From the NCBI GenBank assembly GCA_003864495.1, contig PEDN01001106.1, positions 174,548 to 238,547 on the forward strand: a stretch of 64,000 bases of DNA, written 5' to 3'. Below the pieces are notes generated by a model. The model saw only the letters and a list, made by a program, of their open reading frames with translations, had not been told where the DNA came from and did not search any database. This DNA comes from Nemopilema nomurai (taxonomy: Eukaryota > Cnidaria > Scyphozoa > Rhizostomeae > Rhizostomatidae). The position numbers and the translations under genes are program-made. Of the stretch, positions 548 to 61,200 are shown piece after piece (the stretch's first letter is position 1; each line of letters begins with the position of its first letter).

Positions 548-3500
548 ATGACGACTAATATAAGAAGGCCCCACACTAGCCATTTTGGTCGCCGTTGTGG
601 AAGTGCAGGTCCTGCTCTTGCTTGGGGAGAAAAACCTTTCGAGGTAGATATTTGTTGTGTTATTTTCGAACGTTAATGTGCTGAAGCAAACCACCCATTA
701 ACACTTTTTGTTCAAATAGCATGTTTTGTTTCACATAGGTCATTACGAGTTAACTGTTTTCATTATTTTCTTTGTCTTGTCAACAAACAGGTAGCTGTAA
801 GTGACGATAGTTACCAAGTTCAGGTGAGAATTAACCGCAAACATTTCGAATCAGAATTGCAAGACGTGAAAATGGAGAGACCAGTTCAACCCGGATTTGA
901 AAGATTTTCAGGTTTATATTGCATTGTTTCGTTTTTTATGTACTGCTTATTTACTATACTAAACTTCATTCTTATTTTAAGTTGTGTGATTGGTTGTCAG
1001 ACGTAAACTCGTGTCTTTTGGAAAAGTTCCAATTATGAACAAAATATTTCGTGGGCAAAAGTAATGTACAATCTGTGTATATGTTCGAATGATTGGAAAC
1101 AAAACAGATGAAAAATAAATCCTACAAGATTCTAATACTGGTCCACGATCACGAATTGCTAGGTACATTGGTGCCAGTTGCAATCTGAAATTGGCATTGC
1201 ATTAATCACCACACATCCAACTGAACATGAAAATAGAATGTCTTTACCAAGCTTTTTTGCAACATGAAATGCCTTTGATAATTTTTCTGAGAATCTGTCA
1301 CTGCTTCCAGCATGGTTTAGATTAGCTTTTTTATTTTTTTCAGAAAATTCCCCAAGAGATGGCTTGGACCTCACCACTACTCCACAACAATGCAAGGGCA
1401 TGAGAAGCCATGGTTATGCCTTGAAAGACCCTGAGTATTTTTATCTCACATCAAATAGAAGGGACTTCTCTGGACATTCTGGCTTACCAGCTCCTAATGC
1501 AAGGTCCAGTTTCTTTAGTATTTCCAGCTTTGGACTTCATATCAAACCATTTGTTTGTTTCTGGAGTCTGACTTAAGCTAAGAACCATACAGATTTACAG
1601 GAATAACTTGACTTTTTACTTCTGTCTGTCATCTTTGTTACATCAAATTGTTTTTAGAAATAAGATACACTTTGATATGATTTAACAAGCATTGCCTTGC
1701 ATAAAGTCAATTCAAGAACTGTCATTGAGCAAATTATATTGGTTACCTTAAAAGCACCTGTTTCAGCTTCACTGACATGTTTCATTTGCTGATTTTAGAC
1801 CAAAATCTTCAAAGTTCTATCCATCTGAAGGAAAGTTTCTCAGGTCATCCTACCAAGAGGAGTTTTGTGGAAAAGAGTTTGTTAGTGATTCTGCTTTGAG
1901 ATCTGAAGCAGAAAGCGCTCATAGGCGCAACAAACCACACCCATTAGAGGTATGCAGATTCATACATATAATATTATAATATTTTGACAAATAATATTTT
2001 ATTAAAATCCACTGCTAGAGTTGTTTTGTTTGAATGTTAGTGCACAGCCTTGATGTATTGATCAACATAGATCAGCCAATTGCCAGTGGACCTCCTTTTT
2101 AACCTGGAAAAAGGCCTCCTTTATGCCACAAGAAGCCCCTTTTGCAACATTTGAGGCTTTTCTTTTGATGTTCCATTTCAAATGCTATTTGTAAGCGACA
2201 GGTAGTCAATGCTACATTTGCTTGGTAAAATGTCAATATAATATAATAGACTACAACAGTTACTTTTCATGCCTTAAGTTCATTGTGGTCAGTTGAAAAT
2301 TCTGAGCCAGTCAGCCACTGTATTCAAGTGGGCTATAATGCTAGTTTCACACCAACCAGAGTACTATATTAGATGAATAGAAGTCCCAGTGCCCATTCAC
2401 AGTAGAAAAACTCTCATTGTCAATATTTACTTAATAAGAAGATGTAGTGTGGATGAAGTTGAAGCAAAAGTCTTTTTGGTAAAAGGCACTCAGAGTAGCT
2501 TGACATTTTTTAGCATAGCAGAGAAAAATTTTTGTTTTGTAGTAAAGCCAATTTCTTCACTGAAATTAAACTAGGAAGAAAGCTTCACATAATACCTGTG
2601 GGGTATGATATGCTTTAAAGGAGGGAGGATGCATTCGTGCAGCTGTGGCCTAGAGATTTTTATTCACAGCCCTATGTTAATATTATCCACATTTTGATTG
2701 CTAATTAGGCGTTCATGATCTGGAAGTTTCCTGGTCGGCTACCTCCGTTGGAAAATGTTCATGATATTAGTAAGGAGGTGATGGACCAAGTTTCAAAAGA
2801 GTCTTTAAAGTCAACTTATCAAGTAGATTACATTGGATTAACTCAAGGTAATGCATGCTATGTAATATTTTTCAGCAAGAATTGAAGTCTTAAAGAGCTT
2901 AGCTTAATTTGGTAGTTTAAGCAAGCTTAATTCCTTGCTTCTTTGCAATTATTCACTGAGAATTGATTTCTTGTTTCTTGATTTGTTTTTAGACATCATT
3001 GCATGAAAAGATATTTTATCCCTTTTCCAGAACATTCCATTTGATAGCTTTTGGAGAATTTGCTGAATTTGTAATAAGACTTCACCAAAAAGATATACTG
3101 TAGCTTGAAAGCTCCTATAACACCATTTATATTTTGTATATTCCTACTTCTTTGAAGTTTTTAATCATGTTTTCTTGAGCTCTTGCTTGACTTTGATCTT
3201 ATATAGAATTATATAATACATTGGCCTTTATCTTGTAGGTTGCTTTTTAATAAATATTTCTTTATAAGTTCCACAAAAACTATAATTAAGGTACCACTGT
3301 TTTTTGCGCTCTAGAATCTAAATGTGTTTCCTTGTAGGCTCACAGCATATGCCAGAGTCATTGAAGAATTTTTACCCAACAACGAAGTCAGATAAACCAA
3401 CTTTCACTCTGGATTCAACAAAGAGGTTTGATTATCAACAACCACAATTACGTGGCAGCTTAAAAAATAACACTTCAAGGTATGGATGCAACGCTAGAAG

Positions 3501-4374
3501 GCAGCTGCCTGCCAGGGGAGCTGGTGAGTTCTTTTCTTACCTTTTTTAGTCGAACTATTATACTGGAAGTCGAACTATTTTCCAAGATGAATGACCATAC
3601 TTGGTACTATACTTGCCACTCAGTTTTGCTACATACACATTCAGATTGTATTACTAATCTAAGTATAGAATTACTTTACGCTCTGCTTATCACCCTCTAG
3701 TGTTTTCGATCCGCGTCTGGCTATTAATTCGGTCAGTTTTTGGTTATCTTTCGACGTTTGCATACTCTGAGGAGTGTCGGACGAAAAAAAGTACTTTAAG
3801 TATGCAAAAATTAGTTCCGCTTTTTCTAGCCGTTGTGAAGTTTTGTACCACAAAGCACTTGTTCACAGAATTACTTTACTTCTGAATGCTTCAAGAAGCG
3901 CAATTTCTATCCATTTTACATGCTTTTATCTTGCCAACAGTTCTATTTATCATGCAAGAAGCTTCTCCATTAGTGGACTAAAACTCCTTTCTACTCTTTT
4001 AGTTCCAAACATCTCATCACGAGCTCCTGCAATGCACAGGCCCGAGAAAACCATGTATTCAGACGAATATCGACAAGTCAGACAGTGTAAATATTTCACC
4101 TTTCTGAATCGTTGTATTCCCTGATTTTTGGCACCTTTTGCATTTCTGTGTTATGCAAATAAGTATCTTTTCGCTTTGTAAATATCTAAAGCACCTCGAT
4201 TTGGCACACCTCACCGCTTAGAATAAACTGGCACTGTTTAGAAATGCTTAAATAGCTGTAACTTCGACCATACCGTCAACCAACTAGGTACTCTCTTTTC
4301 CACTAACTCGAGTATTTCATGTCACTAGGCAAAAATATCGCAACACGTTCGGCCCATTGTTGCCAAAAGACTAA
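548..4374 (+). CDS. Putative axonemal/sperm microtubule-associated protein, SPMIP4-like (eight exons, 326 aa)
   Basis: Exons: 548-643, 791-911, 1344-1503, 1799-1949, 2709-2847, 3338-3523, 4003-4084, 4329-4374. All junctions are GT/AG and every reading phase matches, giving 326 residues. ATG 548 opens the frame and TAA ends at 4374. The protein is polar, with no signal peptide or membrane segment, and rich in short Tyr/Pro/Arg motifs such as YFYLTSNRRD, STYQVDYIG, NNTSRYGCN and a terminal FGPLLPKD. This style is typical of the small proteins that line ciliary and sperm doublet microtubules. From memory it loosely resembles human C7orf31/SPMIP4 (a YLT-x-N motif, later an S-x-Y-x-x-D-aromatic-x-G motif). 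The exon chain is well supported; the family name is not. The last intron but one (3524-4002) contains a hammerhead-bearing retroposon. Confidence 0.6.
3680..3866 (+). mobile_element. Short hammerhead-bearing retroposon, copy 1
   Basis: A 187 bp insertion in the intron 3524-4002, flanked by a perfect 13 bp direct repeat agaattactttac at 3667-3679 and 3867-3879, as expected of a target-site duplication. From about 3733 it is nearly identical to the element at 22802-22931. It has no coding capacity. The duplication length suggests LINE- or Penelope-type target-primed insertion of a SINE- or retrozyme-like element. Confidence 0.7.
3757..3808 (+). ncRNA. Candidate type I hammerhead ribozyme, copy 1
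   Basis: The order of parts fits the hammerhead consensus. Stem I strand tttgcatact (3757-3766) is followed by the CTGANGA core (CTGAGGA, 3767-3773), a short stem-loop II (gtgtcggac, 3774-3782), then GAAA (3783-3786). Next come an A/T stem III with loop (3786-3797), the pre-cleavage A at 3798, and stem I strand agtatgcaaa (3799-3808). Stem I is a perfect 10 bp helix in exact register with the core. Stem II is weak (two pairs, then a G-G mismatch), so activity may be low or lost. Cleavage would fall after 3798. Confidence 0.6.
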
Positions 4375-6826: not shown

Positions 6827-8108
6827 CTAACATAATTCTGTATACCTCTTCGTACGATGATTTTGTGATGCCCCTTCAAAGTTTTTAATGCAAGATTTAA
6901 CAAGTGGTCTAGGGCAACTGCCGTTGCAAGGAAAATGGCAGTCGACGTTCCAATGTCTCTTTTCACCTTTCTTGTCTCGTATCCACTCGCTAAATGCATG
7001 ACCTAATGTCTGGTTGTTGACACGAATACGAGACCACGTGTAGTCCACGATTGCTTGTCCGTGCCCAATGCATGAATCTGCAAACAGCCCGTAATGTTTT
7101 AGGCCCTTCAAAGCCTCTTTTAAGTTGTTATACATCGTGTTTCTGAACTCCAATATCTGGTCGCGCTGTGGTGGAGCGCATTTATCATTGTTGTAAATGC
7201 AACGCAACCCATGCAGCTCCGACAACTGCCAATGGTCGTAGAGCGAGTTGACAAAGTACAGTGGCAACTTTGTGTACTGCACCATGTTCTGGGGCAACAA
7301 GCATTTGAACCTCGTGCTGTTGTCTCTACTTCTCTCGCACTTGGTTCTGATTTTAGGCGCGTGTATATCGTATAACCCCTTGAACTGACTCTCCACAGCA
7401 TCCGTGCCATTGGCTGATTGCGATTCTAAGAAGAACCCCGCATCGATCAACCCACGGACCTCTGCAGTCTTTGGCAGTTTGTGCCTCAAATAGTCACCCT
7501 GCAGCAACACTGCTAGGCCTCCTGCAGACGTGCCGCTCAGGATGATGTCGCTGGCCTTCCCCAACTCTCTCCCTTTCAAAGTCTCGATCATTGCCTTTAA
7601 GATTTGGCGTCCCCTAAAGTACAACTTCTCGCCACGATAAACCAAAGGCTTTATCCTTCTTCCAGAGAAAAGGCCCCCATCGCAGTATGACTGGACAACG
7701 ACATTCCAATTTTTAAACCAAGGATTTACTTCATTTTTATCCGACAGAAATCCTTGGAAGAAGTTCGTTATGTTTTCAGCCGACCAGCGCCTCGTTGAGC
7801 CGAGTATCGACTTGCTACGACGATAGCACGTTTCGGCGTCGTAACACCAGGCTCCTCCGTGCAAGTGGATTATCCATTTGTTACGATCTTCACCTTGGCC
7901 ACTGCGGAAGTAGTAGCCTGGAGTAGATCCATCAATGCAGACTGCTCCGTGTTTTGCCGCATTTCCGATTTTAAAGTACTTCACGTTCGCGGGCATGTGA
8001 TTCTTAATTGTAGGCACTTCAGGTGAGTTTAGACTTCTTACCGCTCCACTTATTCCGAATTTTGCGATCCCTTTGACATGCTTATGAATCTTGGCCTTAT
8101 ACTTTGTT
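6827..8108 (-). CDS. Notum / pectin-acetylesterase-like serine esterase domain
   Basis: The frame is open on the minus strand from about 8108 to the stop at 6827. Counting from the GTG codon at 8017 (396 aa), the Notum/PAE fold is clear: CIDGSTPGYYF near 27-37, HLHGGAWCYD 51-60, nucleophile motif SGTSAGG 161-167 (Ser164), Asp261 in NSLYDHWQL, and His319 in DSCIGHG. All three triad positions of human Notum (Ser, Asp, His) are present. Paired cysteines run through the C-terminal half. Notum removes palmitoleate from Wnt and plant PAEs de-acetylate pectin; the substrate here is unknown. No signal peptide or convincing ATG directly precedes the domain. The open frame instead overlaps the end of the upstream frame (8050-8108), so the domain is probably the C-terminal part of the larger secreted product and is reached by a -1 frame change. 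Confidence 0.85.
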
Positions 8109-11100
8109 TAGGAGGTCGATGCTTTCTCTTAAGATGCGACATTTTCTTGCTTTTGTCTTTTCGATGTTTTAGTTTTGAGTGACTCTTCCCTCGTTCCATT
8201 GCTCCTATGACCGAAATGTTGGTGTGAAAATGCCCTCCATTCATATGTAATTTCTTAGTTCTCCTTCTATGTTTTCTACCTTTCCTTTTCTTTCTTCCTT
8301 TCTTCAGAGCTTTTTTGTGTTTGTTCCTTTCTTTGTGATGCTCAGCTTTTCTTTCATCTTTTATTTTTGTTTTCTTGCCAACATTAGGCTCGATCACAAT
8401 ATGGCTGGCTTGTCTAGTTGGATGCTCCACTAAATCAGTTAAATTCTCATGGTTCACTTTGTAAAACTCGTGTACTAGATCGTCTATATTCATAGAGACA
8501 ATCGGATGGTTCTTCCATAGACTGCTGTTTCCGGCAAAATAAAGAGAGAGCTGCTTTTTCAAATGACCGGAAATCTTTTCCGTAGCATTTAGCAACTTTT
8601 CTTTCTCGCTTTGCACTGTGCTTTCATTCCGTTGCACTTTTATTTGGTTAGTATCGTTCTGTTGTACACTTGAAATGTGTACATTTGAAGTGTTTTGCGT
8701 TTGACCAGCTTGTTGTGCACGACTCGTTGTCACATTTGTAATGTTGCCAACCTTTTGTTCCTGTGTCACATCTCCAAGACTCTCCTCTGAATTATACGAT
8801 GAAAGCACAGAGTTGCCTGTCAGTATAGAGACGTTACCAGTCGACATAGAAAATGGGATATGCTCCGTGGATGCATTTCCTTTGTCCTGGTTTGGTGACA
8901 TTTTCCCTATCTTTGTCCCGACGCTCTCCTCTGCAATCTTTTCATTCATTGCCTGTTCTCCTTCAATTTCCTGGTCCATCGTTTTGTATTCATCGCTTGC
9001 CTTGGTTCCATCAAGGTTGTCCAGGTTGAAGTTGCTGCCAAGTCCAACCTTGCTCTGCTTTTGAAGCACTGTTTTGCCTGGATTCTCGTTCTCTAACTCG
9101 CCGCTTTTCAAACTCAAATCCTCCTCATTCTCCTGCATTGGTAACGGTATCTCTTTTGTCTCTTGGCTGTTACTCATGTTCATCTCTGCCAACCTCTCTA
9201 CGAGTGAGTTCTGTGTGTCCAGCCTCGAACTGGCAAGACCAATACTTTCGTATGCATCAGCCGTGGTGTGCTTCGCTTGTTCAACAAGCTTTTGATCATT
9301 GGCCACCATTGTACTCAAAATGTTTGTCGCCAGGCTCTTAAGTCCAGTAGTTCCTTTGACATTTGCTCGTCCTTCAGGTTTGGTGGCGTGAAACTTCTTT
9401 TTCGCTTCTGTGTCAGCGAAAAGACCTGGGTTTGAAAAGCTCATATGATGTTTTCTTCTTTTCTCTTTATGCCTTTTCTTCGACATCAAGGCTCGCGATG
9501 TATCATGAATCAGAGTTTTGTAAAGTTCTCTTGCTTTCTTGCTCAGAATGTTTGTAATGAAGCTTCCTGCACCGTTCTTGTTTTTCCTTCCTCTCAATAC
9601 CCTGAATGCCAACTTGCTATTTTTCCCTTTTCTTCTGCTCTTTTTTACTTTAAGATGGTGCTTCCCAGCTTTTCGAAACTTTTTGTGCCTTTTGTGATGC
9701 ACCACTTTGTGTCCACCCTGATGTTTGATTGGGTTTAACATTTTCCTCTCCACATCCTTCCTGTTATTTGTTAACATGTGTTCCTTTTGGCCTTTCCGGG
9801 ACCCTGCATCGCTGGATTTTGAACCTTCAACTTTATCACTCTCCGCCACGCTTGAAATGAATATTTTTCTCACTGCTTCCTCTTTTGACAGTTTGACATT
9901 ATATTTTTGCACTCCTTCGGGTGTGCTCAATGTTTTGTTCACAGTTTTGTCATTTCTATAATTTGGATTGACATATTCCTTTGCAGTGTCGTGCCACTCC
10001 ATTTTAAGGCCTCCTGTCATGCTCGATGGACGACTTTTCTCCTTGAAATCTGCACCTTGCGTTGGTTCTGCAAAACCTGTCCTTTCGTTAACTTGTCCCC
10101 CAATGGGCTGACTAGCCTTCGTAGCATCGGCTTTGGAAGTCGGTCTCATAGCCTCAATTCCAACATTGTCATGTGCAGAGGGAATCGTAGTGTTCAGCTC
10201 AATGGATTCATTAAAGCCTCTTAGAACATCGTTTTCGCTTTCTTCGTAATCATCTGTGAATGGGGAACTTTCCTGCTGAAACTTTGACTCAGTCGAATCA
10301 TTGAACCCTGCCATCCAATCGTATGATGTGTTCTTGGGCCGTTCGCTTATGTTTTGATTATCTTCTCTCACTGCAGCTTTTTCGTTATTTTTAATCAAGT
10401 TTGTATCTTTCCTGCTTTCTGCAAAGCTTGAGTTGCCATTTGATTTTCCAACTGACATGCTTGCATTATTCTGTTTCAAAGCATCAAAACTTGAATGTGG
10501 AAATGGTAACTTAGAAATGTACGCATCGTCGCTTTCCGTTTCAAGATATGTTTGCTCAATCCTCGAAGAATCTATTTTAGGTAGCTGCACCGATTGATTT
10601 TCGTCGACCTTATTTCCAATGGATGCATCTCCATTTGCAAGGAAGGCATTAATTCTCGTTGTTTCATTTAGGCTAACAGGATTTTGGGTAAAGCTATATT
10701 GTCGCTCATCAGTGGCACCACTTTGTGTGGGAACGTCCTGCTGAATCTGTGGTGCAGTTGAAACATTAGATCCAACCATTCTGCCAGATGGCGTGTTCTT
10801 GGGCCGCTTGGTCATGTTTGGACTATCTTCTCTTTCTTTAGCTTCTTCATTCTTTTCAACCAAACTTGAATCTTTCCTGCTTTCTACAAAGCTTGCACTG
10901 TCATTCGATTTCCCAAATGGCAAGCTTGAATTCTTCTGTTCCAAATTCTCAGTGATTGAAGGTGTGCTTGCAGTTTTGAAGGCATATCCGCTGTCACTTC
11001 CTGTGCCAAGATTGGTGTGTCCCACACTGGGAGAGAAATTTGTTTCAGAGGGTGGCACTGAGTAATTGTCGTTGACCCTATTTGTAACAGTTGCATTTCC

Positions 11101-11595
11101 ATTTGCAAATGATGCACTACTTTCTGTAGCTTTATGAAAACCATTCGCACTTTTCGTATAACTTTCTTGTCGCTCGTCAGTGGCATCACTTTTTGTTGGA
11201 ATGTATTGTACCATTGGTGCTTTAGTCGAAATATTAGATCCTATAATTCGGCCAGATGGCATGTTCTTGGGCCGTTCACTTGTTTTTGGACCATCTTCTC
11301 TTTTTTCGGCTTCTGCGTTATTTTTAATCAGGTCTGTATCTTTCCTGCTTTCTGCAAAGCTTGAGTTGCCATTTGATTTTCCAACTGACATGCTTGCATT
11401 ATTCTGTTCCAAAGTATCAAAATTTGAATTTGAGGATGCTGACTTAGAAATGTACGCATTGTCACTTTCTGTTTCAAGATATGTTTGCTCAATCCTAGAA
11501 GAATCTATTTTAGGTAGCTGCACCGAATAATCTTCGTTGACCTTATTTCCAATGGTTGCATCTCCATTTGCAAGGGAGGCATTAATACTTTTCAT
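8050..11595 (-). CDS. Repeat-bearing Lys/His-rich secreted protein, middle frame
   Basis: A 1181-codon open frame. It opens with three units of about 157 residues (starting near 11590, 11118 and 10648), each with a segment like ANGDATIGNKVxEDYSVQLPK and a later ESRKDT...RPKNTPSGRM segment. These continue the shorter unit at the end of the upstream frame. Two strongly basic blocks follow, rich in KHKK, KGRKKRKGRKHRRR and HHK motifs, separated by an acidic, N-glycosylation-rich stretch. No enzyme domain is visible. The composition resembles extracellular-matrix, biomineral-matrix or heparin-binding proteins, but I do not recognise the family. The ATG at 11595 is probably not a real start: the same repeat continues upstream in another frame, which argues for one product interrupted by a frameshift. 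Confidence 0.65.
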   Translation of the reverse strand: MKSINASLANGDATIGNKVNEDYSVQLPKIDSSRIEQTYLETESDNAYISKSASSNSNFDTLEQNNASMSVGKSNGNSSFAESRKDTDLIKNNAEAEKREDGPKTSERPKNMPSGRIIGSNISTKAPMVQYIPTKSDATDERQESYTKSANGFHKATESSASFANGNATVTNRVNDNYSVPPSETNFSPSVGHTNLGTGSDSGYAFKTASTPSITENLEQKNSSLPFGKSNDSASFVESRKDSSLVEKNEEAKEREDSPNMTKRPKNTPSGRMVGSNVSTAPQIQQDVPTQSGATDERQYSFTQNPVSLNETTRINAFLANGDASIGNKVDENQSVQLPKIDSSRIEQTYLETESDDAYISKLPFPHSSFDALKQNNASMSVGKSNGNSSFAESRKDTNLIKNNEKAAVREDNQNISERPKNTSYDWMAGFNDSTESKFQQESSPFTDDYEESENDVLRGFNESIELNTTIPSAHDNVGIEAMRPTSKADATKASQPIGGQVNERTGFAEPTQGADFKEKSRPSSMTGGLKMEWHDTAKEYVNPNYRNDKTVNKTLSTPEGVQKYNVKLSKEEAVRKIFISSVAESDKVEGSKSSDAGSRKGQKEHMLTNNRKDVERKMLNPIKHQGGHKVVHHKRHKKFRKAGKHHLKVKKSRRKGKNSKLAFRVLRGRKNKNGAGSFITNILSKKARELYKTLIHDTSRALMSKKRHKEKRRKHHMSFSNPGLFADTEAKKKFHATKPEGRANVKGTTGLKSLATNILSTMVANDQKLVEQAKHTTADAYESIGLASSRLDTQNSLVERLAEMNMSNSQETKEIPLPMQENEEDLSLKSGELENENPGKTVLQKQSKVGLGSNFNLDNLDGTKASDEYKTMDQEIEGEQAMNEKIAEESVGTKIGKMSPNQDKGNASTEHIPFSMSTGNVSILTGNSVLSSYNSEESLGDVTQEQKVGNITNVTTSRAQQAGQTQNTSNVHISSVQQNDTNQIKVQRNESTVQSEKEKLLNATEKISGHLKKQLSLYFAGNSSLWKNHPIVSMNIDDLVHEFYKVNHENLTDLVEHPTRQASHIVIEPNVGKKTKIKDERKAEHHKERNKHKKALKKGRKKRKGRKHRRRTKKLHMNGGHFHTNISVIGAMERGKSHSKLKHRKDKSKKMSHLKRKHRPPKQSIRPRFISMSKGSQNSE

Positions 11596-12010
11596 TTAAG
11601 CCTACAGGAGTTTGGTTATAGCTTTCTTGTGTCTCATCAGTGTCATCACGTTGTGTAGGCATGCTTTGTGGAAACTGTGATGCAGTCGAAGCATTGAGCC
11701 CCACCATTCTGGCAGATGGCGTGCTCTTGGGCTGTTTAGTCACGTCCGGATTCTCTTCTCTATTTTCAGCTACTTCGTCATTTTCAATCAAGCTTGTATC
11801 TTTCCTGCTTCCTGCAATGTATACACTATCATTTTCTGTGTCGCCTGTCATATCGGTGTGCGCCATCCTTGAAAAATTTGTCTTAGACAGTGGCACTGAA
11901 TAATCATCGCCGACTGTATTTCCAGCAGTTGCATCTTCAGTTGCAAGTGAAGCGTTCTTTCCTGTAGTTTCATCCAAACGAACAGGACTTTTACTATACC
12001 TTTCCTGTTC
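10240..12010 (-). repeat. Four tandem coding repeats, about 363-470 bp each
   Basis: Homologous segments begin near 11950, 11590, 11118 and 10648 on the minus strand. The first is shorter and lacks the Asn/Ser-rich insert around the ASMSVGKSNGNSSF motif found in two of the others. The third and first long units are especially alike (VQLPKIDSSRIEQTYLETESD in both), indicating recent duplication or conversion. Confidence 0.75.
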
Positions 12011-13591
12011 TTCCTCTGCATCGTAACTCCGTTGAGCATTTCCCCGTTGCACAGATGGTGTAGTCGTTGCGTGAAATCTCATTGTGCTTCTTGTCAGGTT
12101 ATCCGCCCCTGTCTGAAGGCCATAGTTTATCTCTCCAACCTCATCACCATGTTCGTTGATATCCTTTTCAAACGAAGGTTTTGTACCTGTCAGTGCAGTA
12201 TCTTTTTGACTTGTTGATTCGTGCACAAAAACCCCATTCACCCTTTGATCATACTTAGCACCATCCGCTTTCGGCCTAAGATCGATTGGCTTGCGTCTTT
12301 TCCCAGAATAGTCTCCCGAACTCTCACCTGATGTCTCCTCCTCAGCCTCACTTGCCGAATCCTCCTCCCCAGAGCCGCTACCTATGTACGTACCAGCACC
12401 CTGCCTTACTGCCGCATTTAACGAGTTGTTTGCTGGTTGCTTAGTAATGTCCATCTGTTCACTGGTACCTACATGCGCAGCAGTGATTACATGCCCGGTG
12501 GTGCTTAGCTGCCCAGTAGTTCCCACTTGCTCTTTGGTTTTCATACTCGTTCCAAATTTTGGTCTCTCTGCGGACTGATAAGACTGCGTATAAGCGACTT
12601 TTGCATTCTTCATATATGGTGTAGCAGTAGCTGTATATATTTCCTTGAAGTAATTCTTTTGTCCTGGTGGCAAACTCAAGTCTTTCTCGTTCTGAGAATA
12701 GATCTGCGTGGCATTGTTTTTTTCTACTCCATTTCTAAGCCTCGAAAGATCTTCTGGACGACTGGCTATTGCTTTGCCATTGGTTCCATTTGAAATCAGA
12801 GTCAAAGGATTCTTGTTGTACTGTTTAGTTGTTCCAGCTCCATTAGTGCTCACTGGAGGTGCATTGGTTCCATCCTTGTGTGCTCCACTACCCTCGTTCT
12901 CACCACTTCCACTACCCTCAGTGCTCCAGTGATCGTCCAGAAACTCTTTGTCTCCTGAGGCATTCGCGTTCCCTTCCTCTTGTTCTTCTTTGTCATTTGA
13001 GTAAAACGACTGTCCCGATATGTTTTGTTTTGTTTTCGTTTCAAAGTTTGCCAAGGGTCTATTACGGTCGACTACTCTGTTTGTAGGCATTTGGGTGGAC
13101 GTTTTCAGCGGTATACCATTCCAGTATGGAGGTTGCAAGTTGTGAAAGCTCTTAATCCCATTCTCATCCTGCAACCCTCCATTGCTCTCTGAGTATCTGT
13201 ATGTTGCATCGATATCATTACCCCTGGCCAACAAGTCATCATAGTCATCCTTTCGATCATATGCCACAAAGGCATTTCTGCCTTGCACAGTAGGAATAAC
13301 AAATTCGGAGTTGTCGTTTCCTCTTTCCTGTGGAACTGTCTCGATCTGCGCATCAATTACTGCTTTTTTGTACCTGGCAAGAGGCTGAAACATCTGCTCC
13401 AAGTCTTGTACTCCTTCGGGGAGAATTTCTGCGACGAAAATGTCCACATCTGGGTCTGATCCGTTCTCGTCTTCAATACTTAAAGCCCTCTCGTGTCTGT
13501 CCAGGTCGATGTCTGCAAATACAGTGGCCAGTGCAAGGAGTGTCCAGGACACAAGCCACTTCTTCCTGTGGTTTGCAGCAGGCATTACCAT
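11582..13591 (-). CDS. Secreted proteoglycan-like N-terminal part of the Notum-like locus
   Basis: A 669-codon frame starting at ATG 13591. Residues 1-26 look like a signal peptide (basic NHRKK, then hydrophobic WLVSWTLLALATVFA). The body is low-complexity, Asn/Thr/Ser-rich and acidic. Two Ser-Gly clusters in acidic context (about residues 225-236 and 404-430) match the usual glycosaminoglycan attachment signal, so a secreted proteoglycan is a fair inference. Short VGTTGQ/LSTTGHV-type repeats lie near 355-385. Residues from about 531 form the first, shortened unit of the repeat that continues in the next frame. The frame ends at 11582 just where sister repeat units read on, because five bases present in the unit near 10660 are missing here. 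Confidence 0.7.
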   Translation of the reverse strand: MVMPAANHRKKWLVSWTLLALATVFADIDLDRHERALSIEDENGSDPDVDIFVAEILPEGVQDLEQMFQPLARYKKAVIDAQIETVPQERGNDNSEFVIPTVQGRNAFVAYDRKDDYDDLLARGNDIDATYRYSESNGGLQDENGIKSFHNLQPPYWNGIPLKTSTQMPTNRVVDRNRPLANFETKTKQNISGQSFYSNDKEEQEEGNANASGDKEFLDDHWSTEGSGSGENEGSGAHKDGTNAPPVSTNGAGTTKQYNKNPLTLISNGTNGKAIASRPEDLSRLRNGVEKNNATQIYSQNEKDLSLPPGQKNYFKEIYTATATPYMKNAKVAYTQSYQSAERPKFGTSMKTKEQVGTTGQLSTTGHVITAAHVGTSEQMDITKQPANNSLNAAVRQGAGTYIGSGSGEEDSASEAEEETSGESSGDYSGKRRKPIDLRPKADGAKYDQRVNGVFVHESTSQKDTALTGTKPSFEKDINEHGDEVGEINYGLQTGADNLTRSTMRFHATTTPSVQRGNAQRSYDAEEEQERYSKSPVRLDETTGKNASLATEDATAGNTVGDDYSVPLSKTNFSRMAHTDMTGDTENDSVYIAGSRKDTSLIENDEVAENREENPDVTKQPKSTPSARMVGLNASTASQFPQSMPTQRDDTDETQESYNQTPVGLNEKY

Positions 13592-15640
13592 GGCTCAGCT
13601 GTGCGATCCCGTTGCCTTGATGCTTGCATGGACGAGGCCTGGAATTCACTGTGGCGCAAGGCAAATTACAATTACTTATAAGGGGAACCACTCTCGATAT
13701 GCAGTGTGAAATTGAGGACGACCTCTAAGTGATATTTATGACTAGGCCCAAGTTTGCTTAAACATAATTAAACTTGTGAAGGCTTCGATGAATAAAAACC
13801 TGCTCTCGACTGCACATGAATGGATCACCAATTCACGTGTTTGGCCAACTAGAATCACGTGTGTCTTATTCAGGAGAGGGTTAATGAATAGCAACTGAGC
13901 CCAGGTCGCTAGACAATGCAGCCATTTGTCAAGGTTATTCCGCTGGGATTCTTTATTCATTAACGTACATCTTGCTAATTAAAGTATTGTCAATGGGTCA
14001 GTTGGAAAGCATATGGCGTAACCAATATTAAGCTTGTCGAAATCCAACAAGTAGGCTATATCCAGCAGTTTGTGTTAATTTTGGAATGCACGTTTATTGC
14101 AATCGGCCAAATGCACGATGAGCAAACCAGACAGTTTTGTACGTGAATTCGGGTACATTTGCTCCTATGGAAACCTGGAAGGTCTTTGAACACCACTTTA
14201 CATACAACGTTAGAAGCTTAGCTTGGCTCTTCTCAAATAGAAAAATGTTTTAGAGCCATTAAAATGAATTCGACTCTTCTGGGAACTGAATGGACCTCGA
14301 TAACATTTCAATTCAGGTAGAAAATAAACCATTTCAATTCTAACCATTTTGACTAGAAATCATGGGTTTGGCACAAAGTGAGATAGATGGCGTCTGATAA
14401 GGGGTCCAAGATGGGATGCTGAGCGCTTAGCGATGCGGCGTAAAGGCTAAGATAACAAACTACGTCATTGTCGTTCAAGCTAAGTTGCTTGAAATTTTTC
14501 GGAAATTCTCTAGGGGTACAATCGGACCATTCTCGGACTTTTTGTTTCTCGCTAGAGCAAAAGCAGATTGCAGAACATCATGGACTTGGGAAGTAGACAA
14601 TGCGCGGCTCAGCCGTCTTTTTGCCGGGCAAAACCAGGCTAGTTCTGCAGGAAGCCGATTAGCAGCTGTCAGGTGACCATTGAATTCGAAACAGCCTCGT
14701 TCCCGCATGGATGTTGATTCCAAATTAATGACACAGCCGCTCACAGAAGGCTCCTAGTCGCTGCGCATTCCCGATTAACGGAGCTCCAAAAATCTCTCCT
14801 GCATTGTCAAGGTGACATTTTAAAAGTGGCAATGAAGTTATCCAGATTCGGGCAAGGCAAAGTCATTTGCAGTGATGTTTGTGATGGACCAACAACAACG
14901 AAGGCTTACTCACTCTCTTGTTTACATCACTGTCACCTCCAGCCACAGAACTGGTTTCTTGAAAGTACCTCCCCCGCCAATAAAGATCTCCTGTCAAGAT
15001 GCCTCTAATGTCAAGAAGTTGAAACCGAGCCTAAAAATAATAATAAGCTGCTAAGTATAGGATTTATGAAAAAGAGAAGTAGCCAACATCTTGTAGGACA
15101 GCAAACAGAAAACAGCCCCCTGAAATTATTTTTCTCCGTTCGCTTTACAAAAGTCCTACTTAATAAATTTCCATAGCGAAAATTTGACACTACTTTCACC
15201 TTTAAAGCTAGCAACAGAAAAACCTTCCGTCGATAAATTGTAACAATTGAAATATGATATTATTCAAAGGATGAATCTTATATTTAGAATTCTTAGCAAT
15301 GTTATGCTGAAGATATTATTTAGTAATATTCTTAAACCGTTTCCATATTTGCTATGGGAAAAATTTCAGTTCGGGAAAAATTTCAGTTCAGGAAAAATTT
15401 GAGCTTGGTTATGACAAAAACCATTTTGGATGAAATTGACAGGCCACTGACATTGAGCAACGTCTAAAAATTTTGAAAGCGAAACTCTTTTGACCTGTGC
15501 CACTGGCGGAAGTAAAGTAAGCACCACACATGTCAACAATGCTCTGTCAACATGAGCCTTCCCCGAAGATGATTCCCACGCGGAAATCGGTGTAGCGAGA
15601 AAGGACAGTCCAAGACGCAGCTACAGAATCAAAATTCAAG
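13592..15640. other. Divergent intergenic region between Notum-like locus and MELK
   Basis: No gene is recognised. It must contain the promoters of the minus-strand secreted-protein locus and of MELK. Open frames on both strands at 14475-14744 and elsewhere overlap each other and look fortuitous. A short direct repeat of ggaaaaatttcagttc type (about 15354-15408, two and a half copies) is the only structure I see. Confidence 0.4.
15354..15408. repeat. Short direct repeat upstream of MELK
   Basis: gggaaaaatttcagttc is followed at once by a second copy and a partial third (ggaaaaatttgagc). It is about 230 bases upstream of the MELK start codon. Confidence 0.5.
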
Positions 15641-27380
<11,740 letters not shown>

Positions 27381-39330: not shown

Positions 39331-42300
39331 ACTTGATAGGATCGTGAAAGGTTGTCTATCAGTCTTTATGAAGGTGAAAGTCGTTTCAGTGAAGTTGGCT
39401 AGAAACTTAGACTATCTCCTTACAAAATGATCAATTTTGGAGCACACAGTATTTCTTATAAGGCTAAAATGTGTTTGCATCAGTTTTTAAGGAAATAAAC
39501 ATACTGTTGGAAGAGAAAAGTTTAATTGCAATAATTTCTTTCTTTCATTGCAGTACGGCCTAAATGCTGTTGCCAAAGTGTTGCAAAATGACTTATTTTC
39601 TACCAAATTCTGTTTTGTAGGAAGCCATTTTGTCGGTAGTCGATAGGTTAAGAAAATGCTCTTGCACAGCTTTGCTTGGATACAATTCATTCAGTGGGTC
39701 TGCTTTCACTCCAGCATGACCTAGGAACCAATGTTACAGCCTTGCAAAGTGAGCCAATTGAGCAAAGTTTGTTCATAACACCCTTACTTCATTCTACAGG
39801 CTCCAGGGAATTTTTTTGATGCTCTCGTTGCAAATGCCATCTAGCTAATTATGGAAAAGATGCCTTTGGACGCTTTGCAGTATTGTTCAGTGTCCAGGGA
39901 TAATTTTGACTGCCTCGTTGCATTGAAAGGGCATGGTTTGGCGGCGAAAATTTGAAAACAAATTTATGGCAGGTAATTTATTAATGTATGACCTATGCAT
40001 TACTCAATGAATACTAAAAAGGGAAGCTTGATGAATAAAGAGGTAGAACACATTGTGAATACAAGAGTCAAATTAACCCTTCATGAAAAACACACAGTAG
40101 ATACCAAAACAAAAGTAAGTACTGATGTTTAGTATTCATTTCATTTCTATGCCAAAATGTTTAACAGGACGTATGTTGACAAAAATGGCATTCTTCTTCA
40201 TGAAAAGTTTGTTTGGGACTCCGACCCCCAACAGAAGAATTTTGCAACCTAAATTAATTTGGGAATGTGCAATTAATAAGCTTTTAGAAAAAGCAAAGAT
40301 TGCACTTTCCAGATAGAATATAGATTCGGGACGTGATGGCCTTTGCGACAGGAAGCTGATGGTCGATGAGTCTTCGCATAACGCCCAGTGTGATAACATT
40401 GTTGCTGTGAACTTTTTATAAGCAAATCCAACAACTTAAATAGCTCCCTGGGAAGATATTCTTTCGCTGCCTGGCAGAAAGATCAGCTCTATACTTTTCA
40501 GTGTGAGATATTCGACTAACGCGTGAACTGATGATGAATCCATTCTTAGGCCGCTGAGAGCTCCTTGATTACAGCGAGTTTTCGAAGGCAAACCAATATC
40601 ACTGAAGCAAGTCGTTTTGAGAATCGATTTTTCAATTTTGGAGATAATAATAATAATAACAAAAGAAATAATAATAGCTCAATCCAGTGCAAAATGAGAA
40701 AGCAGTGGGAGTCACAAGAGGAGTTCAGCTCTAAAGCTCTCAAATATTTTGTCAATGTATGTCCACGCATCTTTATAATGTATTTTGACAAACGCAGAAT
40801 AATCTGTAATTATTATCCTCATATGTTTTGCACTCATCATGTTAAGATATTGCAAACGACGTTGTCGAGCAAGTGAACGTGTTTTCAAGGCTGGAAAAAC
40901 GCTATAGTTAGCTTTCTTTTTTCTACCTAATCTCTAATATTAGCTTGAAGAGCACTGGGATCAGATCTTGACTGGCTGAGAGCTTGTGCTAAATCATGTG
41001 GCCTCTCTTCCCATGCCATGATTCTTTTCTGTGTTGCTCAGAATTTCATTACATGAAGTTATTGTAACTTGCACTTATTGTCAGTAATTAAATCAAGCGC
41101 TGACTTAGAATTTATCACCATTAACTCGTAAAAAATTATGATTGGAATTCAACATTTCACTCAGTGCGCATGCGCGTAGCCCGACGCTGCCCTCATTTAG
41201 TAGCGTTCACATCATGAACAACTAAGAGACTTACAGGCGGCCACAGTTTGAAAAGGGTGTCTGCCGTCACTGGCACGTGGAAGCTCCCCATGGGGCGCTC
41301 TGCGCGGAATCGCCATCATGAGATTTCGGATGCATAATTTTTAAACCCAGGAGCAGTTGATCTCAATTGATCGGCGCTCCTCTCCACAATCCCAAAATCA
41401 ACAATGCAGCAGTAAACCCTGCATTTTCGCGAATAGAGAAACTTTGTCTAATGAGCTACGCGTTTTCATCTTGCCCGCGAGCTTTAATTGTCTAGGATAC
41501 TTGCAGACTCTAAAATTAGCATGGAGATCGCTTGGACCGGTATAGAATAGTTACCACTCTTCAAGTCATCGGTAGAAAAATTCTTAACATCAGAGATGGA
41601 CATGTCGTTCATTAAAGAGCTTGACTTTCATTTCTCAAACTCTGTATGTAAAGACAAGACAGGACTCTCGCAAAAGAACCGTGCAACTGTTCTGAGTCAA
41701 GCAAAGGAAAATTCAGAGATGCAAACCAAAAATATCCTGGCCGTAACATTAACAAAGAATAACAGGAAGATGTTATTGATTCCACGAATACTCATTGCGA
41801 GAGGCTACCCGAGAAAAAAGCAGCAATATCTACATGATATTGAAGACTTCAAAGGGGAAGTCCAGCGGCTCCTCCGCACCGGCCGATTTGACTGCCGTCT
41901 TAGAAACAAGCAACCATAGGTTGACCCATGACCTTCAAAATTATGGGCCTTAAAAATGTGGCATCAAATCGACAGATCTTTCCATGCTCTTTCCTGCGTA
42001 AATTACCACCATAAAAATTGAAACGTTGGCGTTGTGAGGTAGGGTGTGGCAAATAAAGAAGTTACAAAGGAAGAGAGTGACACTATTGCGAAACGAATGC
42101 GTGAAAAATCATAGAAAAATGCAATTGCAGAACAACGGAACAGTGTGCTAACGAAGTGGTTTTGAAGACTGTTGAAAATCCTTCTGATCTAGGTAACGTA
42201 TGGCTAACTAAACAAATAGAAAGAATGGCCAAAGAAATATTTGCTGCGAAATACCCGAGTCGCATTGCCATGCTTCAAGTCTAACTAGAAATAAAAAGGC

Positions 42301-53222: not shown

Positions 53223-56200
53223 TCACAGAACACGGTACTTGTAGAAATCCACGATGCCTTGAGTGATGTTCCAAGACAAGGAGAGGGACAAGATGTAAAC
53301 AATGAGCAGCACGACGAAGGGATACAGCAAAATAGCCGTACTCCGCAAGAACGGTAGAGCTGAAATATTAAAAAAGCACAGTAAAAGACGGTACATATAT
53401 CCAATACAAGCTTACAGAAAGCTTAAGCAATAAGCCTGCTTGCCATTCCTGAGAAACTGTATTACTAGGGGTGAATTGCACAAAAGGGCCAGTAAGGAAT
53501 GAAGAACAGCTACATTCAGCTATTTATCAAATAACTTACATGACTCCTAAGGAAAAAGAACGACTGCTTTGTCGTACAAAACTTTATACTTCATTGCGTT
53601 TGGTAATTTTCCGACACTCTGAAGAGCGAGGGATGAAAAAGTACTTAAAGAATGCAAAACTGGCTCCACTTTTGTCAACAGAATGAGTTTATACCCGCTC
53701 AACGGTCTCAACATTCACATCAAGAGACCTTCGAAGTGGATATCTTTTGTGATGGAGCAGTTCTATATGAACCAGACATTAAACTTTAATCACGAATTCT
53801 ATTGTCAAAATAATTAACAACAGAACCTACCGCTGTAGCCAAGGAACGTGATGTATATATAGTATGTTAGAGCGATGAGCCATGATGTATTTCCAAAGAA
53901 ACGTGCAATGAACATGCTTGGGTCGACTAGGTGAGACGAAAAAGGAGAGCATTGAAATATTGATGAAAAACTTTCTATTGGGTTTTATTGCGAGACCATC
54001 AGCATTGCAAAACCATGATAGCAAACATGTCTCTTCATTGCTCAGCAAATTGATAAAAAGATTAAATTTTTCAAGCATTCAGCAAATACCATTCATATAG
54101 CAGTGACATAAGATGCTACTTGATTCTAGCCCTTGTTATTAATTTATATTTGATTGAAAATATCCAAGTTCCAAAATATCAGAAACAAGAGAGGGTCTAT
54201 TAATACAATGATGAAAATTCTAGTGAAATAAAGCGATAAACAACAGGGTGTGCTCCCACAAGCAAGGCAGACAAAAACAAATTTCACCAAATAGATCAAC
54301 AGTTTCAAGACCTATCAAAGCAGCTACAATCATGAATTATCTTGATTATTTAGCGTAGTTACATACCTAAAACTGTTTTTAAAGTATTTGACAGTGAGAT
54401 AGCCATTCGGATCTGTGTAAAGTCAAATTAACTTGAACATTTTACTTACAAAGCAAGCCAATCAGCTGAACCATGTGCAGAACGATGAGCAGAGGGAAGA
54501 AAGCATTCAAATGGACATCAAAGGAGTAACCAAATTCAACCACATGCTCAATGCTGCTACTCCCTGGGATGCGTAAATATTTGTTTGCTATCAGCCTGAA
54601 AAGAAGACTAGATAATTATGGCTTACATATGTAACAGTTTCAAGCATTGATCTAAACAAAATACTTAAACAATTATGGGCTTAACTTTCAACTGGCTTAA
54701 AAATTTTAGGTAGATAGTACATAATCTGGTCTGTCTTAGACTGAATAAGTGCAGAAGTGTCTACTGGAGGCTTGGAATAAATAAGCTAAATAAAACCATC
54801 CTCTTCAAAACAGAAGTTATGTTTGTGTAACCTCCTTCTTAAATATTTGAAAAGAGTGTCAGGTTTATCCTATTAGAAGTACCATGTGTCATTATTTGGC
54901 TTTTTCTGTACCATAACTATGATTACTATGGTTAACCATTTAGAAATGTCATTTGCTTTTGATAACATTATCTTAAAAACATTATATACATCACAAAAAA
55001 GACAACATTAAATGAGCACATAAGAGCAATATCACTCTGAGAAAAGAGTCATATATAGCTAGCTTAGGCATCATGACATTGTTGGCCACAAAATGACATG
55101 AAAAATGGTGAAAACAGATAGATAAAAAGTCACAGCCTCAAAGTGCTACTCACCATAGAAATCCAGCAATGACCAAACCAACTCCTATACAATCAACAAA
55201 GACGACCCAGAGCAGAAATTTGACAAAGCCAACCATACCAAGGTGCAAGGAAACCGCAAAAATTAATGAGGAAACTGCAAGCAAAACAAAGATTAAATGT
55301 GATTGAATGTAAATCTTAGAAACAATATCAAAGAATTCAAAGCCCAATATTCAATCTTTGAAAAAAAACATCCAAATATAAAAATTCTCCAATAGGCATC
55401 AATACTTTTCAATATATTTTCTAACATTTATTATATAATGATTTAGTTTTAATTATTTGTCACAATCATGTTTAGATCTAGTGATACATCAATACACAAA
55501 AAATACAGCTTAACAATAGGTAATCATAGAATATAAACAATCACCTAATAGCCAGAAACTGAGGAGAACAAGAAAGGCAGGGTCATCTCTTGCCCATTGA
55601 TGCTTGGCTTCTAGAGAAAAAGATAAATCTCTTTGAATATTCGAAACATTTAGGGGACAAATCTGATACAGACCTTCTGAAAAAAGGTTAATCAAAATAT
55701 ATAAACTGCAAATAATATTATGAAGGTCAGCCTTTGGTTCAACAAAATAATGAAAAAGTCATATCTATATAATTTATAATTTATATTTGTTTGTTTGGTT
55801 TGTGTTTATATAAATATAGTTAGGCATGATAAGCCCAAAAGCAGACAAAGCCATCTTAGTTGGCATTTTATGGCAAACTGGGTCTCTCAAATGCATGCTG
55901 TCCAAAAGGTTGGCTAACATGTTAGTTGCTATACAAGAGAATGTCATTGAAAGAGAAGACCTTGTGGTGCAAAACCCGATTGGGTTTCATTCATTTGTCA
56001 CATCATATTTCCAAAGATAAAGCACCAAAGGATAAGGCCTTCACATAATCATGTTCACTTCTCTTCATTGTGTATTATTTTTTAAAGAGCTCTGGCTGTT
56101 TTGTGAGATGGGTAGTAAAAGACAACCATGGCATACAGATCTTCTAATCACATAAAATAATTTAAAAATATCAACAACCCATCAAAATACATTTGCTAGT

Positions 56201-58200: not shown

Positions 58201-61200
58201 CTACAGAATTTCCAAGCTAAAGCAAGGTCCATTGGGCGTGGCTGATGACAGAGACTCCAAACTGCAGGACAACGAACTCGACACTTCCCCCGGAATTTCT
58301 TTCAAATCCTGATCATACTGCCGGCTCTGGTTCGCCATTTTGCCAGAAAGATTGGGGGCAGACATTGACTTATGAAATCTCTTATCACCCTTCTGACTGT
58401 CACTGAATAAACTTTGAACGATTATTTTCTCTAAAATTGGGTGTAGGACATTTCTTCTCTCATTTTTGCTTTCGCGAAGTTCCTTGAGTCTTTGTTTTGC
58501 ATCTTCGTCACCAAACTCAGCGGCTTTCTCGTACCAACGTATTGCCTTCCAGCGACTTTTTGTGAATTCTAATGAACAAAAAAAGATAGTTTTCAAAAAG
58601 TATGATGGGACTGAGCGTCAAGGTGCTTCAAGCAACCGGAAACTTTGGATCCGTAACGTTAAATGTCACAACAATTTAGCAGCTATAGATCAAATGAATA
58701 TTTTTACAAAACCAAAACGCTGGTTCATGAAAACCATGCAGTGCCTAGCTGTAGTCTCTAAACATTTCGAACATGATAAGGGGATTTATGATTATCCTGT
58801 AACATCTGGCACCTGGACGGAAAAAAGAAGGGTAAAACATCACGTAAACAGTTACCTCCGAGTCCCTTCTCATAGAATACAGCACAGTTGAACATCGAGG
58901 AAACATGCCCACGCTCGGCTGCACTTTGGTATAAATGTCCAGCCTAGAAAAGCAACAAACGAACATGAACTCGCAAGGTAACCAAACATGGGGGGGGGCG
59001 AAACTGTAACATTTGGTACAGCCATCAGCGAAGGGCAGCCTTAAAAGTCACTTTTAGCAGGGTTTACTTCAGTGGGTCTCAGATCTATTTGTGATCATTT
59101 CTGGTTGCCTTTGTATGCAAGCAGCATTTTGTATAGGAAATGTTTGGCTAGCCTTTATGAGATCGGAGACTTCAGCAAACCTCATCTAAAGAAGCCAACA
59201 TGCTGTCTGCTACTGCATCGTCGTTGTTATGTTTTCAAAGACAACGAAACTAATGAAGGCCCACCAGTCAAACCTTTTACTTATCATCACTGACCCACGT
59301 AGAAAGATAGACCATCATTATAGTATAAATACCCATCCATAAAATTGTGTTCTTGGAAGGTATGACAAAAAGATATATCCTTACCACAACTATTTGACAA
59401 AAAGCTGATTAGCAACCCATTAACATAATAGTATTTGGCCACAGACGAAAAACAATTACGTTAAAACAAGAAAAGTCATCTTTCTATGTCAATGTCACCT
59501 TTGCTGTGTCCTTTGCCACTCCCCAACCATGCTCTAGACATATTGCAAAATGATACATACCAACTAAATCCTATCAAACAACAAAAATAGCTTTAATGCA
59601 AAATCCTATTGAAAAAACATCAATTATAGCTGCTTCAAAGGTACATCTGGAGCACCCACGTTATTATTTCAATATTTTTCTATTACACAGTGTAAAAAAA
59701 GGAGCTTACAGAAATCACATGTGTATTTGAGCCCCATTGCAAATGTTCTCATTTTTAGGTTACCTAAACTTTTCTTTTGAATCATACAGAGATATGCTTG
59801 GAACTTTCTATTTTTAAGATAATTTACAAATAGAAGAAAACATTCTTCATCGTTCATGATCTGCTATGGCATTAAGGCCCTCTTTACAGGGGAGAAAAAG
59901 GAACAGATCTAAAAGATCCAGACCTGTAGGGAAAGATATGGGTATGGTGCACAAGCATTCACACCAGATTGGACCCAAAACTATAAAACGTTTATATTGA
60001 GACGGACCAAAAGTGAGTTTCTCTTTTTAACCATGCGCAATAACAAAGCCTGTGTTAATTTTCATTCTGGCAGTCTTGCAGTGCAGCCATGCGTTTGCAG
60101 ATCTACTCATTTACATGGAGCCAATAAAGGTACCGGCTCGGAAAGATATTATTCCTATGTGCCCACCGTGTAGATGTGAGGCCTTTCTTAGTCAGTTTGG
60201 ACATAGATCTATGCAGATCCGTTCCCCTGTAAATGAGGCCTTTACATTGGTTTCTTCCAAAAGGTCTTTTAAAGAGGGTTTGTGACATAATGAACTGAGT
60301 AAGGACATTAAAAGAACAGAGGGAGGACTGCGAAAATAATGCTTGAATGCAGGTTTATACATATGTCACAGAAGCTCCCATCCTTCTATCTTTCAAAACA
60401 GATAAAGCCTACTTCAGTGATAAGTAAAAAACATACCTTTTGATCAGAGGCTAAAGAAAAGTAGCTTGCAGAAGCTGCCTGATTGCTTTCTTTTGCATAA
60501 TGAAATCCCATGCATACTTGTGCCTAATGGACATATCAAGGCATTAAAAACTTTGTAACATTCTCTTATAAGAAAATATTAACATGTTATATAGCTTGAA
60601 GGACAAATTCTAATCATTTTCAAATTCGATCCATGCTGGATTCTTCTAAGGCTCTCTGTAACGATGATTAAAAATACCACTGTGGGCTCAAGCCATTCAA
60701 AGCATCACCTTGTCAATACATGTCTGCCTAAATTTGCATTGGGGATTTCAATATACAGTAACAAGAGTTTTGTAAAAAAGCCAGTCATGAAGAATTTGCT
60801 CAGTTCATATTAATGCTTGACTAAAATAAACCTTTGCAATGCCATTGTCAGCTGCCTTCTTGAACCAATGAATAGCTGTTTCGTAATCCTGAGCTAACCC
60901 TCCAACACCTTAAAATACAATAATAACAAAGTATATACATATAACAACACAGTCAAATAAAGTCAAATAACCTATGTGAATTAGATTAAGAAGAATTAAA
61001 TTCTGCTACCTAAGAGAATGCTTTGAAACTCTGTATTGGCGGAAAAAGAATGCATAAATGTCTGAAATGGACAGAAACTAAATTCATTTTTCAAATTGGG
61101 AAATTAATAAAATATAATAAGCAACCCTAATTAAATGAAACTGACAGACATACTTGGGAAACATGATTTGTGATCTTGAAATAATATGATCCAACATTTT

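Follow-up and report, generated by a model that had tools for sequence, protein, structure and literature searches.

We consider it highly probable, taking the parts of the claim jointly, that the DNA analysed here (the window, 64,000 nt of Nemopilema nomurai, contig PEDN01001106.1, positions 174,548-238,547, forward strand) carries a truncated insertion of a GIY-YIG Penelope-like element (PLE) with a minimal type I hammerhead in its pseudo-LTR (pLTR), and that such insertions arise by the mechanism proposed below.

Anatomy and detection of the hammerhead motif

All parts of a minimal type I hammerhead are present at window positions 3757-3808 (copy 1), exactly where, and in the order in which, an earlier sequence-only reading of this DNA had placed them. 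The component features, with the corresponding motif of a second copy, are:

3757-3766, + strand: stem I, 5' strand TTTGCATACT, 10 of 10 bases paired with 3799-3808
3767-3773, + strand: core CTGAGGA (C3 to A9, N7 = G), identical in copy 2
3774-3782, + strand: minimal stem-loop II GTGTCGGAC, two Watson-Crick pairs and then G-G
3783-3785, + strand: core GAA (G12 A13 A14), assigned from the sequence
3786-3797, + strand: stem III segment AAAAAGTACTTT, 3 A-U pairs in copy 1
3798, + strand: A17, with cleavage predicted 3' of this base from its position in the motif
3799-3808, + strand: stem I, 3' strand AGTATGCAAA, containing the ORF start codon at 3802
22829-22878, + strand: hammerhead motif of copy 2, located by the structural descriptor, with the cut predicted after 22868

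Stem I is open-ended and lies flush with the core and the cleavage site, as in type I hammerheads, and the invariant CUGANGA ... GAA is found in copy 1 together with A15.1-U16.1 and H17. The perfect 10 bp stem I that the earlier reading set against CTGAGGA and the pre-cleavage A proved correct at all ten pairs, and its tiny A/T stem III corresponds to the three A-U pairs at 3786-3797. Stem II comprises two pairs, while stem III comprises 3-4 A-U pairs as a monomer.

The structural descriptor matched copies 1 and 2 exactly and nothing else in the window, whereas 100 dinucleotide shuffles, searched with stem I set to at least 5 bp, gave an average of 0.01 matches each; when stem I was set to at least 6 bp, the shuffles gave no match. 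A simpler pattern likewise gave two matches in the window and none in 100 shuffles. As both copies derive from one family, they count as one event in these statistics. Across the genome searched (212.9 Mb in 226 contigs), the core-to-ATG pattern CTGANGAGTGTCNGACGAAAN{3,12}AGTATG had 518 exact matches and its reversed control none, a number that is uninformative on the conservation of the core and stem II, since the core and the greater part of stem II are written into the pattern itself. At the level of sequence, the motif at 3757-3808 is thereby confirmed as a genuine minimal hammerhead-type ribozyme sequence.

Covariance models and RNA folding

The earlier reading had proposed a check with the Rfam type I covariance model over 3740-3830, and here the score fell to background. 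Among the hammerhead families in Rfam release 15, none was detected at E <= 5 across the window, nor any at E <= 10 in 3740-3830 alone. A genome search with Hammerhead_1 gave no match, but is uninformative, as it also matched none of its 14 control genomes. A long copy of the element scored 13.8 bits with RAGATH-1-hammerhead (E 3.2, gathering threshold 56.3), with the alignment in the correct register, and a copy of a second family (family B, see below) had no hammerhead match among the Rfam models. The motif thus has no covariance score above a curated cut-off. These background scores count against a canonical hammerhead; they do not exclude, and are compatible with, the minimal PLE form, which reviews class as atypical and describe as having no helix III or no tertiary contacts (PMC6155905, PMC7761336).

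Folding of the isolated RNAs favored another structure. The minimum free energy fold of copy-1 RNA (-13.1 kcal/mol) is not a hammerhead, the drawn hammerhead pairs reaching -6.8 kcal/mol, and in copy-2 RNA an alternative hairpin at -13.4 kcal/mol compares with -6.6 kcal/mol for the drawn pairs; these energies leave non-canonical core contacts out of account. In both copies, the alternative hairpin is composed of the stem I 5' strand, the core, and stem II. Randomised stems equalled its stability in 2-5% of cases in family A and in 12-16% of cases in family B, and the notion of a conserved off-switch is weak, since randomised stems are so often equally stable. The hairpin is consistent with a ribozyme that would be inactive when monomeric and unbound, as is reported of the PAc element discussed below, a fit which proves nothing in itself.

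Identity of the element

The hammerhead motifs lie within insertions delimited by exact repeats of the target, and a third, decayed copy is also present:

3667-3679, no strand: left target-site duplication AGAATTACTTTAC, a 13-bp exact repeat flanking the element
3680-3866, + strand: copy 1, a 5'-truncated direct PLE insertion (pLTR, ORF start, and tail), with limits taken from the duplication
3831-3866, + strand: PLE 'tail' between two end positions of genomic copies, its commonest form folding as a hairpin
3867-3879, no strand: right target-site duplication AGAATTACTTTAC, exact repeat
22790-22801, no strand: left target-site duplication of copy 2 TCCTCAATAATT, 12 bp
22802-22931, + strand: copy 2, a 5'-truncated direct PLE insertion, 90% identical to copy 1 over 138 columns
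22932-22943, no strand: right target-site duplication of copy 2, 12 bp
53616-53673, + strand: third copy, decayed, with a broken hammerhead, 77% identical over 61 columns and without a descriptor match

A genome search with 3680-3900 returned 41 matches from the 40 scored of 2950 candidates; these were 93-95% identical, except for the window itself and one at 89%. These matches represent the 3' end of an ORF-bearing element. The ORF of the longer copies matches RVT_1 just above the curated cut-off and GIY-YIG weakly (E 0.002, below the Pfam curated cut-off), and its protein relatives (best 120 of 3362) carry RT domains, a few of them also GIY-YIG. Solved structures yielded no sequence match to the ORF piece. 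In one longer locus (L050), the upstream pLTR with its hammerhead continues straight into the ATG and the beginning of the ORF, MRKIVPLFLAIVKFCTTKHLFTYF. The pLTRs of this locus flank the ORF at 660-848 and 3354-3449 (the second being cut by the end of the locus), giving the order pLTR-ATG-ORF-pLTR, in which a hammerhead closes each pLTR. The start codon lies within the 3' strand of stem I, the continuation into the ORF being seen in L050, L051, and L052, and the window copies still encode MQKLVPLFLAVVKFCTTKHLFT and MQRLVPLFLAVVKFC at the ORF start.

The RT and GIY-YIG in the ORF, the pLTRs at both ends, and the ATG after the hammerhead support the assignment of the locus to a PLE with endonuclease, as a truncated copy of an autonomous-type PLE. 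The Penelope-related membership suggested by the earlier reading is therefore upheld by the RT/GIY-YIG ORF and pLTRs of longer copies and by the target-site duplications at the insertion. Its description of a short retroposon in the PLE/retrozyme class stands for the PLE part and falls for the retrozyme part; since the element is a truncated PLE, the circular RNA expected of a retrozyme is not specifically expected here. A search of viral_contigs with the hammerhead core pattern gave no match.

The window contains further features of interest. An ORF at 6827-8107 on the minus strand is pectinacetylesterase/Notum-like (PF03283), and large repetitive ORFs adjoin it at 8050-13594 on the same strand. 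This ORF is 71% identical to EukProt Seg1303.11/GoldUCD, a label which we take to denote the moon jellyfish Aurelia, with corals among the more distant matches. A U11 spliceosomal RNA (Rfam RF00548, 91.4 bits) is located at 41250-41381 on the plus strand, and on the strength of this clear match the host probably has a minor spliceosome. Finally, a similarity to SCARNA6 at 59258-59295 on the minus strand is sub-threshold (31.4 bits against a gathering threshold of 68) and confined to a short block.

Conservation across two families

Because the copies of one young family say little on conservation, a second family was sought. Family B is represented by four loci (L053, L054, L055, and L082) and is ~72-76% identical to family A in matched pieces. 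In a comparison of one sequence from each family (L027 for A, L055 for B), 19 positions of the 20-nt core block are identical, compared with 49 of 100 in the upstream flank and 23 of 40 in the downstream flank. Three of the four family B loci are damaged in the core (CTGGGGA in L053, one core G fewer in L054, and lost in L082), and L055 possesses two copies, each with an intact CTGAGGA. Coding was considered as a cause of this conservation and excluded, since the frame upstream of the ATG has a TGA within the family B core, as read by eye.

The sequence-only reading had suggested that a minimal stem II with a G-G mismatch might be normal for this family, and the wider sample agrees: among 49 aligned rows, the region was found in 46, of which 42 have GTGTCGGAC as stem II, and family B, with GTGTCAGAC, shares both pairs and the G-G. 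Stem III is frequently palindromic. The commonest genomic form in family A is the palindrome AAAAGTACTTTT, and AAAGTACTTT is also a perfect palindrome. Among the 93 sequences printed of the 518 matches, the two commonest types are both palindromes; in these 93, stem III is palindromic in 57 and non-palindromic in 36. The core-bearing copies of L053, L054, and L055 in family B have the palindrome AAAGCTTT, while copies 1 and 2 of the window are without a perfect one. A dimer of the commonest form would yield 12 pairs. Among 11 3' flanks examined for further PLE families, the descriptor was passed by five (L083, L087, L088, L089, and L090), all of family A; one (L085) has a changed family A core, one is the family B locus L082 with its broken core, and no hammerhead was detected in the other four (L080, L081, L084, and L086).

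Structure of the insertions

A target duplication and an optional tail of 30-40 bp, both hallmarks of PLEs, are present in this element. The target duplications measure ~10-14 bp (13 bp for copy 1 and 12 bp for copy 2). In a set selected by the tail, reading by eye gave 21 insertions in which the left end is clear and the duplication spans at least 10 bp; this leaves aside duplicate loci, loci in which no duplication was found, and ambiguous ones (L034 and L046 among them). An inverted arm is present at the left end of 14 of these 21, and the remaining seven, both window copies included, are direct truncated insertions. Of the inverted left arms, 12 of 14 begin at CTAGC or up to ~9 nt past it, and two begin in or beside the hammerhead.

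A tail-blind sample was drawn with a query ending at position 149, before the tail (CTAGC ends at 152). Ten of its 20 ends carry the tail and ten do not, and each of the five insertions with both ends has exactly one tail, with a shared flank of 12 or 13 bp. The arms join mostly at microhomology: of 13 head-to-head pairs, eight have arms that share 1-15 bp at the junction, two have arms 0 or 1 bp apart, and in three the arms are separated by gaps of 17, 36, and 612 bp. Paired inverted ends had suggested a TIR transposon, a candidate set aside in view of the single tail, the variable junctions, and the internal RT coding; the retrozyme and SINE readings were dropped in view of RT/GIY-YIG and the inverted 3' ends. 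Two individual insertions may be described here. The L027 insertion (959-1686) has near-equal arms of ~330-360 bp around a 36-bp filler and is almost palindromic, and L031 (2483-6729, minus strand) contains gag/pol-like LTR-retrotransposon frames between two PLE arms, which suggests nested insertions.

In the 13 pairs, comparing the two arms of an insertion at diagnostic sites gave 4 differences in 193 comparisons, while comparing different insertions gave 472 in 4356; a total of four or fewer was never reached in 5000 shuffled re-pairings (mean 18.4). The 114 diagnostic sites include many that merely separate a few divergent copies. These figures indicate that both arms normally derive from one source RNA or source copy, and two different templates per insertion are ruled out as the rule by the few differences within insertions. 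The clearest exception is L022 (1022-1686), whose arms differ at two linked diagnostic variants, and this insertion needs two source RNAs or a template switch. Single arm differences occur in L014, L033, and L059, the last being outside the 13-pair tally.

Arm starts and the predicted cut

If the cut RNA serves as template, arms are expected to begin at the base after A17. Three arms begin within 1 nt of the predicted cut: that of L052 exactly, that of L051 one base in, and that of L010 (2083-2120, plus strand), a stub of ~36 nt reaching from the predicted cut, or the preceding base, to the tailless first end site and facing a normal arm. L051 and L052 are separate insertions with different partner arms. 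A genome search for full ORF starts found five: L050, L051, L052, C46:624115, and C91:1970300. L050 continues into the upstream pLTR rather than beginning at the cut, while C46:624115 begins ~9-13 bases past it, as judged from the position of the pattern match. Further arm starts inside the ORF are scattered in the ORF-start loci. Genome-wide counts of arm starts show no clear peak: the test pattern for the cut gave 13, and the three control patterns gave 12 (ten bases downstream), nine (in the core), and four (further upstream). Each pattern accepts starts within ~2 bases of the chosen place and also catches mutated copies. The three starts near the cut raise the possibility that ribozyme cleavage sets one end of the RNA of the element; a transcription start at this position would look identical.

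Discussion

The mechanism that we propose builds on the anatomy of the copies, their duplications, end positions, one tail per pair, junction overlaps, core conservation, and palindromes; protein binding, dimer cleavage, and the use of cut RNA as template are the steps that we infer. The RT-endonuclease would bind the RNA at the small tail hairpin just 3' of the hammerhead and would nick both strands of the target DNA. Synthesis of cDNA would begin within the RNA, on either side of the tail hairpin, and from the two nicks cDNAs of opposite strands would be joined in the middle of the element, often at microhomology. This joining would produce inverted ends and a target duplication of ~10-14 bp, and the failure of one arm would leave a simple truncated direct insert of the kind seen in the window. 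Cleavage would most likely involve either a hammerhead dimer paired at the palindromic stem III or help from the protein, and the cut, falling ~32 nt ahead of the first start site, would separate the ORF from the pLTR upstream of it. Several observations weigh against this account: stem II has only two pairs, cleavage at UUA is slower than at GUC, and a perfect stem III palindrome is lacking in both window copies and in 36 of the 93 printed sequences. Minimal PLE hammerheads reportedly cleave as dimers, to judge from the title of a 2017 paper by Lunse et al.

An extension of this mechanism, which we regard as possible though rather doubtful, is that the cut RNA is the template, that RT runs off at the cut, and that the stem III palindrome pairs two template RNAs within a protein dimer. 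If true, full-length arms begin at AGTATG, exactly where RT leaves the cut template; an RNA cut too early would yield, from the first start site, a stub of ~32 nt like that of L010; and the stem III pairing of two RNAs would explain inverted ends with one tail each.

It is less likely, but still to be weighed, that the hammerhead is a relic: the PLE would move without it, and the sequence would be kept for protein binding, as a promoter, or for the overlapping hairpin, the arm starts at the cut being transcription starts or chance. The alternative hairpin forms in both families and, in both window copies, is more stable than the hammerhead pairing as drawn; the counts of arm starts show no maximum at the cut; and in the PAc study insertion in vitro proceeded with no need of a hammerhead (PMC11167929). 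Against this, the randomised stems that match the hairpin in both families deprive it of much of its distinctiveness, and the hairpin leaves unexplained the GAA, the U16.1, and the placement of the stem I 3' strand in both families, as well as the palindromic stem III.

We find it very improbable that the units are a retrozyme-like non-autonomous element, spread through RNA circles made by the ribozyme. They are indeed short, high-copy, and equipped with a type I hammerhead, and metazoan retrozymes, which are similarly mobile elements with such a hammerhead and have coral among their hosts, are described in PMC7229834 (Nucleic Acids Res. 2020), so that elements of this class are known in cnidarians. 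That source, however, describes retrozymes as tandem repeats that are small and non-coding and carry canonical hammerheads, a description that the present element does not fit: its units are not small tandem repeats but ends of a coding PLE, representing the 3' part of an RT/GIY-YIG element truncated to varying extents on the 5' side and flanked by ~10-14 bp target duplications, and the hammerhead is minimal, having a perfect stem I without a loop for tertiary contact. A chance resemblance to a hammerhead inside a repeat agrees with the background covariance scores but is scarcely credible given an expectation of 0.01 per window, the 19 of 20 core positions kept in the second family, and the hammerheads reported at the same place in PLEs of other animals (PMC11167929, PMC7761336).

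The truncated PLE insertion that we favor finds its closest counterpart in Poseidon PAc of Anolis carolinensis (Frangieh et al. 2024, PMC11167929). PAc has an RT-GIY-YIG ORF and a pLTR hammerhead at the ORF start, and its tail is delimited by two neighboring internal sites at which RT starts, as in the jellyfish element. Its purified protein cuts and extends both target strands, which is here proposed from the structure of the insertions, and its tail measures 30-40 bp (PMC11167929). The two differ in that the PAc ORF begins at stem II, whereas the ATG here lies in the 3' strand of stem I, and in the end sites, which here lie ~32 and ~69 nt past the predicted cut, unlike those of PAc (PMC11167929). 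The PAc hammerhead is reported to cleave only with protein and to be dispensable for insertion in vitro (PMC11167929). Since the PAc hammerhead mutants inserted normally in vitro and RNA-seq gave no reads beginning or ending at the cut (PMC11167929), the role of the hammerhead in movement is unproven; the same study, in its account of the later steps of PLE insertion, calls them not yet validated, and a review refers to the activity and role of PLE hammerheads as a mystery (PMC7761336).

Penelope elements of Adineta vaga have been described with inverted pLTRs, target-site duplications, and a 31-bp tail on one inverted pLTR (PMC3846280). The Adineta pLTR covers 12 ORF codons, or 22 with the tail, compared with ~10-13 or 22 here. 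The main text of that paper does not contain the word 'hammerhead', and for palindromic inverted junctions it proposes self-priming on an antisense template (PMC3846280). The PLE hammerheads of Cervera and de la Pena 2014 and Lunse et al. 2017, as far as their published descriptions go, are of type I with a tiny or missing stem III and are located in pLTRs, a likeness by description only. Among the titles listed by one literature search on hammerhead ribozymes in jellyfish, none concerned this element, which does not show that no such paper has appeared.

As the anatomy of PLE hammerheads, tails, and inverted ends is already published, the additions made here are counts: one tail per insertion, joining at microhomology, and three arms that begin no more than 1 nt from the predicted cut. 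The hundreds of matching copies with clean duplications in the N. nomurai genome make the rules of ends, joining, and source countable. The end rule is one tailed and one tailless end, the joining rule is microhomology, and the source rule is usually one source per insertion; furthermore, the genome allows a direct test of whether the ribozyme cut defines the template ends.
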